From contig NZ_JANRMI010000002.1 of NCBI RefSeq assembly GCF_029531655.1, forward strand, positions 434,001 through 498,000: a DNA stretch of 64,000 nt. The letters run 5' to 3'. Source of the DNA: Bdellovibrio svalbardensis. GTDB taxonomy: Bacteria; Bdellovibrionota; Bdellovibrionia; Bdellovibrionales; Bdellovibrionaceae. Below, piece after piece: positions 43,619 to 53,568 of this stretch. The notes beneath the pieces were generated by a model. The model ran no database searches. It was not told where the DNA came from and saw nothing but the letters and a program-made list of their open reading frames with translations. Position 1 is the stretch's first letter. Each line of letters starts with the position of its first letter. The position numbers were made by a program, and so were the translations under genes.

Positions 43619-45715
43619 ATGTTGAGACAAATTCTTGCGATCATACTTGTAGCTACCGGTTTGCTGTTCGCCAGTCTTTCTTTGGCTTCTAGTCATAAGA
43701 ACGGAGCCCAGAAGGAGCTCTATTTGTCCTATGAACAGCGCCTGGCATTGACCTACGCGATGATGGCCCATGGTGAAAAGCCAGAGGTTCAGAGGGAGTA
43801 CCTCGATCGTGCGGAAAAGTACTTTACTGCGGTTTCCAGTCTTCCGGTTAAAACAGTTCAAGTTGCGAATTTCGAAGAATTCTTAAGGCATTTTAGAGGT
43901 CAATGGCCCGACACTCAAAGTGTGGTATTGGATTTGGCCATGATCGAGAAAGACGGCCCACGTGCCATTGCGATCTATGAATCATCAAGCCCTCGGGTGC
44001 AAAGACAAATTGAAGCCTATCAAGAGTGGCAGCTAGAACAACTCAAAGCGATGGCCGAATCTGACAAGACGGCGCAAAGTTACCTTCAGTCCAAAGAGCT
44101 GGTCGGAAACGCTTTGCATTTGTTGCAAGATCCCTCTGGCAAAACTTTGGCAAAAGAGTGGTTGTTGGAACAAAACGAGAATCTTTTTAAAAAGCATATG
44201 CAGGAATTTGATCGCATCGGTGAAAAGATTGCCAACTCTGAGATGGCTCAGTCCACCGACGTTTCCATGAAGATTGTGTTGCAAACGATGCTGACTGAAT
44301 ACTTCGCAAGGCTTTCCCCGCAGTCTAAAAAACTCATTGTATCTTCTTTCTTAGGAGGCAACCTCCACGCGAACGACATGCAAAAGTTCGAGATTATGGT
44401 TCAAAATTCCGGACCTCAGTTGCAAAAGCTTTTGCAAATCGTGGCAAGGCAAGGGGACTTGAATCCTGAAATGATCAAGGTCTTTAAATCTTTGGAAGAT
44501 GCAGTTCGTCCTGTTCCCTATAGACAAGTTGAAGAAATACTTGCCAACGAAAAGGCAAACTACAAGTTTATATATTTCGAGAATAAACCCATTGGCGTCG
44601 GGACGATGGCGCAAGTCCACAGAGCGAAAATCCTGGTTGAGGGTGTTCGCAAAGATGTGGTTGTTCGGTTCATTAAACCGGATATCGAAAAGCGCGTGGA
44701 AGAAGATGGCCGTATTCTCAAAGAGGTGGCAGCCATCTTGGATAGTAATCCTGAATTTGCAAAGACAGGGGCCCCCAAGTTGGCTCCCATTGTAGCCGAT
44801 GTCACAGCGACTGTGACAGCAGAGCTCAGTCAGGAAGACACGATTGCCAGACAGAAGATGGCGGCGTCTCGCTACAATCAGACCACATTTATGAAAACGC
44901 CAGAATATAAAAACAGCATCGAGTTCCATGTCCCGGGAATTTATGCTCCAGAAACTCCAAAATCGAAACTCATGGTTCAGGAGCTTGTCATTGGTAAAAA
45001 ACTCGATAAAGAGGCGGCCGCTTGGGCGGAGCTGGCACCGAACCTCAAAAAAGGTGTCGTCGAGGCCTTGGCCAAAATGTGGGGCCAGGAGGTTCTGTTC
45101 GGTGGTGGTTTCTATCATTCGGATTTGCATCAGGGAAACTTCATGGTGCGACTCACAGACGAGAAAGTTCGTGTGAACATCCTGGATTTCGGAATGGGCG
45201 GTGTGATTCCTGCTGATTTACAGCGCCAGGTTATGGTGTTGGGCGCTGGTATCGAATTGAAAAATCCTGAATTGGTGGCTCGCAGCTTTTGGAAGATTAG
45301 TAACAAGTCAGTCAATGAAGTCACCGAGCAACAATTGAAGTCCCTGGTTGTAGCTCGTATGAAAGCGGGAATAACAAATCCAGATGAGATTTCAATCGAT
45401 GGCTGGACAAAGTGGGCCATGAATCATGGTTTGCGTCTTCCCTATGATTTTATCAGTTTGAATCGCGGTATCGTGATCGTGAATAAGCTTTTGCAAGACA
45501 GCGGAAGTAAGTTCTCAATCTCCAATATGATCAAGTCCTTTGCTTTTCAAAATCCAATGCTGGTTTATCGCCGCCTGGTTCTTGAAGAAAAACTATCTCA
45601 TGCAGATTTGATGAAGTTGGGACTTCAGGAAATTATTGGGATGGTTAGAAGTCCGGAGGCATTAACTTCTCCGAAGATGCCAGCGACCTTCAGATGTGAA
45701 GCGGTTTTACTCTAA
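43619..45715 (+). CDS. Exported ABC1/UbiB-like atypical kinase homologue
   Basis: 698 residues, beginning with a signal peptide or anchor (LAIILVATGLLFASLSLAS), which is unusual for this cytoplasmic or matrix family. Residues about 35-230 are a helical extension with no match. The ABC1 domain follows: KLLQIVARQGDLNPEMIKVF (KxGQ region, Gly to Leu), GVGTMAQVHRA (Ala-rich loop), VVVRFIKPDIE (the VAVK Lys is Arg), FYHSDLHQGNFMV (catalytic loop) and VNILDFGMGG (metal DFG). Family members act in ubiquinone production or lipid transport. The catalytic-loop residues remain while the Lys-equivalent and KxGQ are changed, so activity may be altered. Location outside the cytoplasm would lack ATP; an inner-membrane anchor is the alternative. 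Confidence 0.85.
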   Translation: MLRQILAIILVATGLLFASLSLASSHKNGAQKELYLSYEQRLALTYAMMAHGEKPEVQREYLDRAEKYFTAVSSLPVKTVQVANFEEFLRHFRGQWPDTQSVVLDLAMIEKDGPRAIAIYESSSPRVQRQIEAYQEWQLEQLKAMAESDKTAQSYLQSKELVGNALHLLQDPSGKTLAKEWLLEQNENLFKKHMQEFDRIGEKIANSEMAQSTDVSMKIVLQTMLTEYFARLSPQSKKLIVSSFLGGNLHANDMQKFEIMVQNSGPQLQKLLQIVARQGDLNPEMIKVFKSLEDAVRPVPYRQVEEILANEKANYKFIYFENKPIGVGTMAQVHRAKILVEGVRKDVVVRFIKPDIEKRVEEDGRILKEVAAILDSNPEFAKTGAPKLAPIVADVTATVTAELSQEDTIARQKMAASRYNQTTFMKTPEYKNSIEFHVPGIYAPETPKSKLMVQELVIGKKLDKEAAAWAELAPNLKKGVVEALAKMWGQEVLFGGGFYHSDLHQGNFMVRLTDEKVRVNILDFGMGGVIPADLQRQVMVLGAGIELKNPELVARSFWKISNKSVNEVTEQQLKSLVVARMKAGITNPDEISIDGWTKWAMNHGLRLPYDFISLNRGIVIVNKLLQDSGSKFSISNMIKSFAFQNPMLVYRRLVLEEKLSHADLMKLGLQEIIGMVRSPEALTSPKMPATFRCEAVLL

Positions 45716-48564: not shown

Positions 48565-51500
48565 TTAGTGGTTTCCCTCGCAGAAGGCCTGTTTACCCAA
48601 CTCACAGAGGGCTTGTTTCATGGCTGCATTTTCAGCTTTCATTTCCGCATTGTCAGCTTTTATCTTAGCATTGTCCGCCTCGAGTGAGGCAATCGCGCGA
48701 TCTTGTTTTTGATCATTCGCCAGAAGTGGTTGAATGTACTTCGTGTAAAGATCCTTGATTGAATTCACCACGGCCCAGTGAATTGGATCCGCATTCAACT
48801 CCAGATAGCCGTCATCACGAGTATGAACTGCATCTGGGATGACTTTCTGAACTTCTTGCGCAATAAATCCAGTCACAGCTTTATCAGAAGGGATGTTCAG
48901 TGCATTGTCTTTTTTATAGTTAAAGCGCACAGTGTGGAGTTGCAAGATTTCGTCTAATCCATATTCATAGTCACCATGAATATCTTTAAGTCGGGCATCT
49001 GAAGCCATAGTCCATGCTGTTCCCGTGCTCAAGCCGGCGGTGCCTACAACGTGAAGGGTGTAACCAGGGGTGCTGGTGCCAATTCCTATGTTACCAGTAC
49101 TGGTGATTCTCATGCGTTCCATCAATGCAGAGGACGGGGCCGTGAAGAAACCGAGTGCGCCGGGCGCGACACCACTTGAGTGTGCTCCGTCAGCCATGAA
49201 ACGGATTTGCGAAGATTGCTGGAAAGTTGTGGTGCCTGTTGCTCCATAGGCGCCAATTGTGCCGATGGTATCTGACGCATTCACAGGTGAGGCGGCACCT
49301 TTACTGCCTTTGGCAGTATAGAAATCATAGGTTCCCCAACTTGCGGTAGTTGAGCCGTAGGTGATTGTTTGGAAACCAGGATATCGTCCGACAGTTGGGG
49401 CGCTTGAATTGGCAACGGCGACCTTTGGCGAAGAGTCCTCACCGTAGAAAGTGGTATTACCAGTTGTGTCCACGCCCATACGTGGAACTGTCATACTCGC
49501 ACCATAGTCAAAGAGTGCGTAAGTTCCATCTGCCTTCGCAGAGATGACCCATGGATTGGCGGCGGCATTTGTATTTTCCAACTTAATTGAAGTTGAGTTG
49601 GTAGATCCTGATTTCAAATGCAAAGCAACCGGTAACGTAGGTTCGTTAACGAAGACTCGTGAAGAACCTGGGTTGGTGCCGAAAATTCCAATTTGTCCTG
49701 ATGGAGTGATAGACATTGCGTTTGTACTGTTGGTAACGATATTTAGTCCAAAGGCATCTGTTGTGCCCAAAACTGCAGCCGCACCAAAGGCATTTCCGCC
49801 GTTACTGAACAAGCCAGCACCATTAGAAGAATAGCAACCTGCGGTACCGCCGGCGTCGAAACCTACAAGTTGTCCTACCGGGCAGGTAAATGGAAGATAC
49901 GAGTTACCTGTTCCGTCCGAGGCAATCAAACGATTCGCAGTCATTGTTGTAGAGCCAGTACCTCCTTTAGAGACAGGTACGGCGGAGGCGAAGCTGGCTG
50001 GATTGACGTTCACAATTCCTGAAGTCACCGACAAGCCAGATCCGGCTTGCATAATCCCTTTTGACGAAGCGGTTGCATCACTCACTGAAATGGACGGTGT
50101 CGAAGAACCATTCGAAACCACAACTGGTGCTGTGCCAGTGACGTTGGTGACAGTACCACCAGGTGGTGTAGCCCATTTCAATCCCGTTGCCATTGCCGAA
50201 TCCACAGTCAAAACCTGACCGTTGGTTCCAGCTCCAAGGCGAACATTGTTGCCGCCGTTGTCATAAGTAACAAGATCACCCTTAGTGTTCAGTGGAGAAA
50301 GGACGTTGAAGGCTCCAACGATTGTAGTCGTGCCTGTACCACCTAAAGAAATAGGAAGAACACCTGTGGTTTCTGTTGAAAGATTGATAGCAGGGGAGGT
50401 CCCAGCTGCTGTAAGTCTACCTTGTGCATCGACGGTAATATTCGCGCGGTTGTAAGTTCCTGGTGCAACGGAAGTATTCGCAAGTGAGATTGTCACGTTC
50501 CCAGTCGAACCACCACCAGTCATTCCAGTACCAGCAGTCACACCCGTGATCGTGCCACCGCCACCAGGAGTGGCCCAAGACAAGTTGCCACCACCGTCAG
50601 TGCTAAGAACTTGGCCGGCAGCGCCATCAGCAGGAGGTAAAGTCCATGTTTTATTTGCGGTAACGTTCGAGGGTGATCGGAAACCGACGTAGTTTGATGA
50701 ATCAGCATCTGCAAAGCGCAATTCGTTTTGAGCATTCAGTTGCAAATAGTTATTGAAAGATTTTGCGGCATTGATTGTCTGTGGTGAAGTTTTATCAATC
50801 AATCCAGCGGTGTCTGGCGAACCACTTGCCCAAGAGGTCACACCTGTTGCGTAGACGACATTTCCAGCTGCTCCCGCCGCCAATGAGCTGAGGGCGCCAG
50901 TCCCAGCCCCCACAACTAAATTGCCAGCTCCAATGGTGGCCACACCCGTACCACCATTTGCCACCGGTAAAGTACCCGTGACATCAGTTGGAAGAGATAC
51001 TGACGAGTTGACCCAATTTGTTCCATCGAAACGAAGATGTTGTCCAGGTGAGTAGGTAACAGGAACAACACTTTTGCCTTTAATTTTATCCACTGACATC
51101 GTGCTGGAAGTTCCTGAAACGTCACCAGAGAATGTCGAAGCCGTTCCCAGCTTTGTATTGAAATTGTCATAGTCAGTTTTACTGATAAGACCCGCAGTTA
51201 CCGAAGCAACTGACGCCATCGGAATATTTAAGGTGTGTGTAGTTGTCGCAGAACTGAATGCCGGCGAGTTTCCACTTGTGCCAACGGCAAAAGTTTGTGT
51301 ATTTCCAGTTAAGCCATTTAGAGAAGTGATGCCAGCACCACTCGCTGCAAATGCATTCCAAGATGTTCCGTTACAATATTCAACGTTGCCGCCATTATAG
51401 CGAATCGCACCCGCTACACCCGCTGCACAGGCTGTTGCATCGGTACCAACGCGTACTGCTCCTGCCACATCAAGTTTGATTGAGGGAGTCGAAGTTCCAA

Positions 51501-53568
51501 TACCGACATTACCACCAGTGGGATTTAAAAGAATATTGCCCTTGGTGGCGTTTGAAGTGGAGTCTAACGTCAAGCTGTTACCTGCAGCTGTTCCACCATT
51601 CAGTGCCTGACCACCAGAGCGACCTGCCAATAAAGCATACTGAGTGAATGTATCGGATGTTTTTGCAACCCAAGCTGGTGCACCCGTACCATTGGTTAAA
51701 AGAACTGAATCATTCGCGGATGTTAACCCACCCACGACGTTGTTTGCAGAAGAGAATAGCAATTGATTTACTGTCGTTGAGCTAGGGTAAGCGGCAGTCG
51801 AGAATACGGGACCTGTTGGAGAATGTTGTAAGATAGTACCTGTTGTTGATCCGGAAACTGCAGTCATAGCACCAGAGCCATTTGTTCCGATGACGCTGTA
51901 ATTTGCCCAGCCCGATGAGGATAGTTTTCCATTCAGTTGAGACTGGATAGGAGAAGTGACTCCTGAAACATATCCTAATTCAGTGTTGGTCACAGCAGAG
52001 TGAGTGGGGATTCCATTAGAGTCAGACACCAACGCTTTATTAGCGGTAATTGCCGTTGCTTCGACAATGGCTCCGCCTGAAGAGACCATCACGCGATTGC
52101 CAACCAATGCAGTTGTTGAGTTTGTTCCGCCGTTTGCAATCGGCAATGTTCCTGTTACATCGGCAGTCAAACTTGCGTTGCCTGCGCTATAAGTTCCAGC
52201 ACCTGTACGCTTAACAAAACCCGTCGTTGCAATACCATTCAATCCACTCAACTCTGTACCTAAACCGATAGTTCCTGTTGAGGTGATTGTACCGCCAGTT
52301 AAGCCAGTTCCAGCAGTGACCGAAGTTACAGTACCAGCCCCTGCGGCTCCCAATGTTACAACAGCCGAGCCATTCCAGTATTTAATTTGGTTGGAGGTGG
52401 CGTTGTACCAAGTCTTGCCTTTATCAACGGTAGATAATCCCGTCGGATCCGTCGAGTTATTTGATAGATGCAAAGACTTATTCGGCGACATAGTAACATA
52501 GCCAAGGTTCGTAAGATTATTGCTATTCAAGTCAATAGCACCGCCCATCGTACCGCCAGAAAGGGAAAGAGCATCAGTGATGCTATACCCAGCCAAAGTC
52601 GTCGGTTTTCCAGACGTAATTTTACTCCAATCAAGTCCTGGAATATCAGTCGCAGTCAGCGCCCCGACTCCAGATATGACGCGCCCTTTAGCATCGGTTG
52701 TAACTTTAAAATAAGTACCTGGGGATCCAACAGAGGAAAGCGAAACGGCTCCGGCATTTGAAATCGTAGCATCACCACTCATATCGACCGGGGAGGCTAC
52801 GTTGCTGCCATTACCAACAAGTATTTTTCCACTGGCAAGGCTCGGAGATAATTTACCATTGAACGTATTCCAGTCCGACGAACTTAAAAAACCATTGGTT
52901 GAAAAAGTAGCTTGCGAGATGGAAACCACTGGATTTGCGGCGGCTCCGGTCACTGAGATAGGGGCTGAACCAGAGACCGTCAGTACGGTACCACCAGTCA
53001 AACCTGAGACACTCGAGCAACCGAAAGACATGGTCGCCGCATTCCAGGTTAGAAAGTTATTGGTGCCGTCACATGAAGTGGCGCCATTCACTTGGTTTTT
53101 CAAAACAAAATCAGAAACATCTTTATCAGCCAATTTCATCGCATTGATTGCGAAGGGAATATTGTTGATGGTGACATCGGGACTTAAATCCGTTCCGTCG
53201 ACTTTGATATGCAAACTGCGACTTGCGAATCCGCTGACAGAAGCTGCAGAAGAGCCCGAACAGTTTACAGATCCCGAAGACGCAAAAATGCGATCCGCCG
53301 TATTTCCCGTGCTGTCCTGGCGGGTGCCGCTTCCGACGATAACGCTGAATTCACCTGCGGCACCGGGAACAACAGTTTGAATTTCTTCATAGGCAATACA
53401 AGAACCATAAAGTACTTGAAAGGTGACGCTCTTGGATCCCGTTAGTGGATTGCCCAAGTTGTCAGTAAGAAGACCCTCATAAGTCATCAATGGACCGGGT
53501 GACGGTGAAGCCGCCAGAGCCGCGTTTGAAGCTAGAATCAAAAATAAGGAAAGGAGGGACTTTATCAT
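48565..53568 (-). CDS. Giant trimeric adhesive fibre 2 with S74 chaperone domain
   Basis: 1667 residues; AAGGA lies 7 nt before the ATG. Signal peptide LLSLFLILASNAALA; N-terminal beta-domain related to fibre 1 (MTYEGLLTDNLGNPLTG, CIAYEEIQT, NNIPFAINA); a shaft of mixed repeats (GTLPVANGGT, KYWNGSAVVTLG, VTSVTAGTGLTGG, AGLISKTDYDNF, NVGIGTSTPSIKLDV); then NTTFYG and other tail-spike-like segments; ICA/S74 domain with SDARLK (Ser1523, Lys1528) and GFIAQEVQKVIPDAV; and a heptad coil ADNAKIK-ADNAEMK-AENAAMK ending in a Cys-containing tail. Fibre 1 and 2 share modules but not overall order, as expected of mosaic adhesins. The upstream lipoprotein overlaps by 4 nt. Confidence 0.93.
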   Translation of the reverse strand: MIKSLLSLFLILASNAALAASPSPGPLMTYEGLLTDNLGNPLTGSKSVTFQVLYGSCIAYEEIQTVVPGAAGEFSVIVGSGTRQDSTGNTADRIFASSGSVNCSGSSAASVSGFASRSLHIKVDGTDLSPDVTINNIPFAINAMKLADKDVSDFVLKNQVNGATSCDGTNNFLTWNAATMSFGCSSVSGLTGGTVLTVSGSAPISVTGAAANPVVSISQATFSTNGFLSSSDWNTFNGKLSPSLASGKILVGNGSNVASPVDMSGDATISNAGAVSLSSVGSPGTYFKVTTDAKGRVISGVGALTATDIPGLDWSKITSGKPTTLAGYSITDALSLSGGTMGGAIDLNSNNLTNLGYVTMSPNKSLHLSNNSTDPTGLSTVDKGKTWYNATSNQIKYWNGSAVVTLGAAGAGTVTSVTAGTGLTGGTITSTGTIGLGTELSGLNGIATTGFVKRTGAGTYSAGNASLTADVTGTLPIANGGTNSTTALVGNRVMVSSGGAIVEATAITANKALVSDSNGIPTHSAVTNTELGYVSGVTSPIQSQLNGKLSSSGWANYSVIGTNGSGAMTAVSGSTTGTILQHSPTGPVFSTAAYPSSTTVNQLLFSSANNVVGGLTSANDSVLLTNGTGAPAWVAKTSDTFTQYALLAGRSGGQALNGGTAAGNSLTLDSTSNATKGNILLNPTGGNVGIGTSTPSIKLDVAGAVRVGTDATACAAGVAGAIRYNGGNVEYCNGTSWNAFAASGAGITSLNGLTGNTQTFAVGTSGNSPAFSSATTTHTLNIPMASVASVTAGLISKTDYDNFNTKLGTASTFSGDVSGTSSTMSVDKIKGKSVVPVTYSPGQHLRFDGTNWVNSSVSLPTDVTGTLPVANGGTGVATIGAGNLVVGAGTGALSSLAAGAAGNVVYATGVTSWASGSPDTAGLIDKTSPQTINAAKSFNNYLQLNAQNELRFADADSSNYVGFRSPSNVTANKTWTLPPADGAAGQVLSTDGGGNLSWATPGGGGTITGVTAGTGMTGGGSTGNVTISLANTSVAPGTYNRANITVDAQGRLTAAGTSPAINLSTETTGVLPISLGGTGTTTIVGAFNVLSPLNTKGDLVTYDNGGNNVRLGAGTNGQVLTVDSAMATGLKWATPPGGTVTNVTGTAPVVVSNGSSTPSISVSDATASSKGIMQAGSGLSVTSGIVNVNPASFASAVPVSKGGTGSTTMTANRLIASDGTGNSYLPFTCPVGQLVGFDAGGTAGCYSSNGAGLFSNGGNAFGAAAVLGTTDAFGLNIVTNSTNAMSITPSGQIGIFGTNPGSSRVFVNEPTLPVALHLKSGSTNSTSIKLENTNAAANPWVISAKADGTYALFDYGASMTVPRMGVDTTGNTTFYGEDSSPKVAVANSSAPTVGRYPGFQTITYGSTTASWGTYDFYTAKGSKGAASPVNASDTIGTIGAYGATGTTTFQQSSQIRFMADGAHSSGVAPGALGFFTAPSSALMERMRITSTGNIGIGTSTPGYTLHVVGTAGLSTGTAWTMASDARLKDIHGDYEYGLDEILQLHTVRFNYKKDNALNIPSDKAVTGFIAQEVQKVIPDAVHTRDDGYLELNADPIHWAVVNSIKDLYTKYIQPLLANDQKQDRAIASLEADNAKIKADNAEMKAENAAMKQALCELGKQAFCEGNH

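Follow-up and report, generated by a model that had tools for sequence, protein, structure and literature searches.

The closest described systems to the protein analyzed here are human COQ8A (ADCK3) and COQ8B, yeast Coq8, UbiB, and the mycobacterial ABC1 proteins Rv3197 and MSMEG_1954, whose structures have been solved with nucleotide. Kinase-fold proteins of this kind ordinarily act in the cell interior, in quinone metabolism. In the COQ8 field, changes at the A339 position of COQ8A and in the KxGQ motif are used to ask whether these proteins act as kinases or as ATPases, and the COQ8A A339G and Coq8 A197G substitutions increase autophosphorylation and ATPase activity and decrease CoQ (PMC7263595). 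The first-pass annotation of the DNA studied here took ABC1 proteins to be normally cytosolic or mitochondrial, which is too narrow, since plastid ABC1K proteins are also described (PMC4805650).

The window, a stretch of 64,000 nucleotides from Bdellovibrio svalbardensis, contains an open reading frame (ORF) of 698 amino acids with an ATG start (positions 43619 to 45715, forward strand; features below lie on the same strand unless stated otherwise). This ORF is the Bdellovibrio member of a real exported ABC1 subfamily that is spread through the phylum; in the open-access papers searched, we found nothing on an exported ABC1 protein. If confirmed, the subfamily would place an ABC1/UbiB-type kinase fold outside the bacterial cytoplasm, in surroundings usually poor in ATP. 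It would also offer naturally occurring counterparts of the two motif changes named above, in a well-conserved, uncharacterized, predicted envelope protein of predatory bacteria.

Fold and active-site motifs

The ABC1 domain (PF03109) spans residues 292 to 540 (44492 to 45238) and scores 96.3 bits against a Pfam gathering cut-off of 22.9. The AlphaFold model of the complete protein (mean pLDDT, 85.7; pTM, 0.80) has the COQ8A fold, with Z scores of 17.5 to 17.7 and 3.8 Å over 346 residues at 17% identity. Rv3197 and MSMEG_1954 match the model at Z scores of 12.5 to 14.4, and RIO and protein kinases match at 12 or less, well under COQ8A. The best NCBIfam matches are the UbiB models TIGR01982 (112.7 bits) and PRK04750 (81.2 bits), both far under the equivalog cut-offs of 487.55 and 667, respectively. 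Among the features proper to the UbiB/COQ8 family, the catalytic-loop Asp and Asn and the DFG are present, and the KxGQ Gly, the Ala at the A339 position and the VAVK lysine are absent. Compared with UbiB, the protein is predicted to be exported and is without the defining Gly and Lys.

Residues were counted in one profile alignment of 61 exported-type sequences (21 from the genus, 20 at order level and 20 at phylum level) and 87 canonical ABC1 proteins, comprising 8 Bdellovibrionota paralogues and 79 proteins from named genomes that were fetched by patterns from our own alignment and are not a random ABC1 sample. Equivalences to COQ8A were taken from a HMMER alignment, with COQ8A numbers counted from the chain offset. 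At the KxGQ motif (COQ8A K276 to Q279), HMMER and the profile alignment both place K270-L-L-Q273 (44426 to 44437). The Gly is found in none of the 61 exported-type sequences, which have Leu, Phe, Ile, Val or Met instead, versus all 87 canonical proteins, and the Lys and Gln are retained in 61/61. The loop G326-V-G-T329 (44594 to 44605) replaces A337-A-A-S340 of COQ8A, and G328 aligns to A339; this position is Gly in 53 of the 61 exported-type sequences, whereas it is Ala in 87/87 canonical proteins and Gly in none. The VAVK lysine (COQ8A K358) is replaced by R350 (codon CGG, 44666 to 44668), and the same position holds Arg in 52, Lys in 8 and Gly in 1 of the 61 exported-type sequences, versus Lys in all 87 canonical proteins. 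Three residues further on, at the position of COQ8A Y361, lies K353 (44675 to 44677), a site occupied by Lys (52/61) or Arg (9/61) in the exported type and by Arg in 82/87 canonical proteins. Unlike this ORF, Rv3197 and MSMEG_1954 retain the Ala-rich loop and the VAVK lysine at the aligned positions.

The catalytic loop and the DFG align with those of COQ8A, COQ8B and Coq8, as do the KxGQ Lys and Gln. The catalytic loop HSDLHQGN (residues 500 to 507; 45116 to 45139) retains D502 and N507, and the DFG (residues 523 to 525; 45185 to 45193) retains D523 and G525, in every one of the 61 exported-type sequences, among which most other alignment columns vary. D502, N507 and D523 are likewise present in 87/87 canonical proteins. 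E402 (44822 to 44824) is the likely equivalent of the ExD glutamate and is Glu or Asp in 61/61, but this equivalence depends on the alignment, because HMMER and MAFFT place the motif differently relative to COQ8A; the ExD Asp position is S404 here and Asp, Asn or Ser in relatives. Among the 21 genus orthologues (50 to 75% identity), KLLQ, GVGT, R350, K353, HSDLHQGN and the Asp and Gly of DFG are invariant, and the DFG Phe is Tyr in some.

The first-pass annotation had read KLLQ, an Arg at the VAVK lysine and an intact HSDLHQGN and DFG in this protein, and each of these residues was located in the translation. Its statement that canonical ABC1 proteins retain the KxGQ Gly and the lysine held for the 87 checked, and the homologue comparison that it proposed showed the substitutions to be common to the homologues, rather than homologues keeping all canonical residues. 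The GVGT loop and the invariant K353 are details additional to that annotation.

Export signal and N-terminal domain

The N terminus of the ORF, MLRQILAIILVATGLLFASLSLASS, has a single Arg in the n-region, followed by a hydrophobic core (12-residue mean Kyte-Doolittle hydropathy, 2.95); A23 marks the -3/-1 site. Residues 1 to 23 (MLRQILAIILVATGLLFASLSLA; 43619 to 43687) were assigned as a Sec-type signal peptide, for which cleavage after A23 is an estimate. A23 is invariant in an alignment of 11 sequences, and the dN/dS of residues 1 to 25 is about 0.2 to 0.3 in close pairs, with values of 0.22 to 0.26 for the signal segment in the two pairs also used for the kinase region, which indicates that the signal segment is translated and constrained. 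A wrong start codon or frame was ruled out because this segment is conserved and constrained.

Signals were scored by a rule of our own, distinct from SignalP, that looks for a positive n-region, a hydrophobic core and either a -3/-1 site or a lipobox. By this rule, an n-h-c signal is found in the ORF itself, which has no second hydrophobic or transmembrane segment. Among the exported-type sequences, all 17 genus orthologues tested have a signal, as do 17 of 20 at order level and 16 of 20 at phylum level. The rule is lax genome-wide, with 138 of 325 ORFs passing, and the evidence therefore lies in the contrast with canonical ABC1 proteins, of which 5/87 overall, and none of the 8 from Bdellovibrionota, have such a signal. 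A lipobox was found by rule in six relatives (L141, L142, L144, L145, L149 and L150) and by eye in L152. The lipoprotein signal of these relatives would place the remainder of those proteins outside the cytoplasm. Together, signal peptides in nearly all members and lipoprotein signals in several suggest that the kinase-fold domain is most likely extracytoplasmic. Export of this conserved ABC1-fold protein, as predicted from sequence rules, is well supported and in our judgment highly probable, in agreement with the signal sequence proposed in the first-pass annotation; a search of the open-access literature found no localization data.

The same segment could alternatively be an uncleaved inner-membrane anchor with the kinase domain in the cytoplasm, an arrangement that had been named earlier as grounds for abandoning the export reading. 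One hydrophobic stretch at the N terminus might, in principle, be enough to anchor the protein, and some canonical UbiB proteins are membrane associated. However, the N-terminal flank is short and positive, -3/-1 sites are present, no second hydrophobic segment exists to return the domain, and in some relatives from other families a lipoprotein signal takes the place of the signal peptide. These observations make a cytoplasmic, anchored kinase domain very improbable.

Residues 24 to 262 (43688 to 44404) form an N-terminal domain of approximately 235 residues that is mostly helical, with two short strands, in AlphaFold models, and that reaches a pLDDT of 88.8 when modelled alone. The helical extension noted earlier ahead of the ABC1 domain is therefore recovered in the model, in which residues 26 to 262 are mostly helix. 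No Pfam family was found for this domain, and comparison with the PDB gave nothing convincing (best values, Foldseek E of 2.7 and VIA Z of 3.5), which is not proof of a new fold. Predicted export, this different N-terminal domain and a lone C-terminal Cys further distinguish the protein from COQ8A, COQ8B and Coq8.

Relatives, phylogeny and the C-terminal cysteine

An orthologue is present in 21 of the 24 genomes of the genus, including one (G015) in which it is split over two contigs, and is absent from G002, G011 and G023. Profile searches found relatives in other genera, in many families and in other branches of the phylum. The genome that carries the ORF also encodes L001 and L002, two ABC1 proteins whose motifs are canonical; L001 is a UbiB-like paralogue and has a pair of hydrophobic segments at its C terminus. 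The ORF is therefore an extra paralogue and not the sole ABC1 protein. A single-protein scan of named genomes gave no close relatives. The closest named relative among the matches listed is from Bdellovibrio bacteriovorus strain kdesi (56%), and in a profile scan that returned at least 80 loci, the matches listed comprise one from Bdellovibrio (L161) and otherwise canonical ABC1 proteins. Two diverged exported copies occur in each of two genomes (L041 and L044 in G029; L046 and L048 in G061). A 1274-amino-acid relative (L160:1488-5312), in which the loop and the beta-3 region are degraded and a C-terminal CEQAFSF is retained, is a possible pseudokinase of the family.

This distribution bears on whether the protein is an effector delivered into prey and acting in the ATP-rich prey cytoplasm, a route that the first-pass annotation had also raised. 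The predatory lifestyle would be in keeping with such a role, and Sec signals can carry fused reporters into the medium in attack-phase B. bacteriovorus (PMC12622784). Nevertheless, the gene is missing from 3 of the 24 genomes, no delivery signal or partner gene was seen, and the lipoprotein relatives suggest retention in the predator envelope. We found no evidence for transfer beyond the envelope and consider delivery into prey very improbable.

A tree of 64 rows places all of its 44 exported rows on the same side of a branch that has support of 100/99. Seven of these (L153 to L159), which keep the Lys and mostly the Ala loop, branch apart from the 37 other exported rows, nearly all of which have Arg, again with support of 100/99. 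On the simplest reading of a tree whose root was drawn at the midpoint only and whose rows were chosen by us, both of which bear on the order of changes, the earliest steps would have been export, a KxGQ motif without its Gly and the C-terminal Cys, with the Lys-to-Arg change coming later.

The protein has no hydrophobic C-terminal end. In place of a transmembrane end there is a tail of residues 673 to 698 (45635 to 45712), modelled with a pLDDT below 50 from residue 681 to residue 698, that carries the sole Cys of the protein, C693 (TGT, 45695 to 45697). This residue was absent from the first-pass annotation. The mature part of the genus proteins likewise contains a single Cys. All 20 genus proteins whose end is intact have their last Cys no more than 21 residues from the C terminus, as do all 20 order-level and 18 of 20 phylum-level sequences, versus 4/87 canonical ABC1 proteins. 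In this ORF and in L034 to L048, L088 to L093 and L141 to L157, the tail Cys, usually the only one, precedes hydrophobic residues (as in CExVF or CSQLIKMMF), a feature of nearly all the exported ABC1 proteins that is rare in the remainder of the genome sample. A lone, predicted extracytoplasmic thiol of this kind invites the idea of a disulfide partner or a modification. A common C-terminal tag was rejected as an explanation, as only 5 of 325 ORFs in 400 kb of the genome end in C-x-x-hydrophobic-x0-3, and of these only the present ORF and L111:4263-5582 also look exported.

Possible roles in the envelope

We tentatively favor a reading in which the exported ABC1 subfamily would be extracytoplasmic, would bind nucleotide and metal, and would act as a Cys-tethered envelope ATPase or phosphotransferase; taken as a whole, we place it a little short of an even chance. 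After export, the protein would reside in the periplasm or on the cell surface, its kinase-fold domain outside the cytoplasm and still able to bind nucleotide and metal. Its substrate would belong to the envelope and could be a lipid, as for the related COQ8/UbiB proteins. The inhibited state known from COQ8A would be loosened by the loop that contains G328 and by the missing KxGQ Gly. R350, with K353, would assume or weaken the part that the lysine plays in phosphate binding, and the C-terminal Cys would tether the protein to a partner or to the membrane. The ATP supply would have to lie outside the predator's own cytoplasm; in the bdelloplast, prey nucleotides may be a source, for which classical studies of how intraperiplasmic Bdellovibrio takes up ATP offer a lead. 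The parts of this reading that concern nucleotide, activity and tether are inferred. Functional analogies, for which we claim no sequence relation, are offered by FAM20C, a secretory-pathway kinase with a kinase fold outside the cytosol, and by the WNK kinases, which are without the usual beta-3 lysine.

The main competing explanation is an exported pseudokinase, in which the fold and the nucleotide or metal pocket would be kept for structure and the protein would act noncatalytically in the envelope, binding or scaffolding a lipid, peptidoglycan or a partner protein. Lys-to-Arg changes usually cripple protein kinases, and the periplasm is generally assumed to be free of ATP. The Arg that replaces the lysine in 52/61 sequences and the ATP-poor compartment both point this way, as does L160, in which the loop and other motifs are lost and the C-terminal Cys is kept. 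Conversely, the catalytic Asp and Asn and the DFG Asp are invariant in 61/61 very divergent sequences, in which some losses would be expected if the family were noncatalytic. In addition, two close pairs give dN/dS values of about 0.016 and 0.043 for the kinase region (NG86 method, with distant pairs of saturated dS left out), and such low values, together with the retained catalytic residues, argue against a dead domain. Retained nucleotide chemistry is thus favored by the invariant catalytic residues and opposed by R350 and the ATP problem, and we regard the pseudokinase as a substantial but doubtful alternative. A bolder form of the catalytic reading, in which the members would be active extracytoplasmic kinases across the phylum, with the Gly-loop and KxxQ changes freeing the kinase activity that is restrained in COQ8, Arg/Lys in place of the usual lysine, the C-terminal Cys as a covalent envelope tether and ATP from an external source such as prey, appears unlikely.

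No conserved operon partner was found in the loci compared, where a MOSC gene recurs in 5 of 12 and other genes less often, and the variable neighbours therefore suggest no substrate. Elsewhere in the window, the reverse strand encodes a 1667-amino-acid exported, repetitive, fibre-like protein with a C-terminal Peptidase_S74 (chaperone of endosialidase) domain (48565 to 53568). Chimeric fibre proteins of Bdellovibrio are described in prey recognition (PMC10769870).
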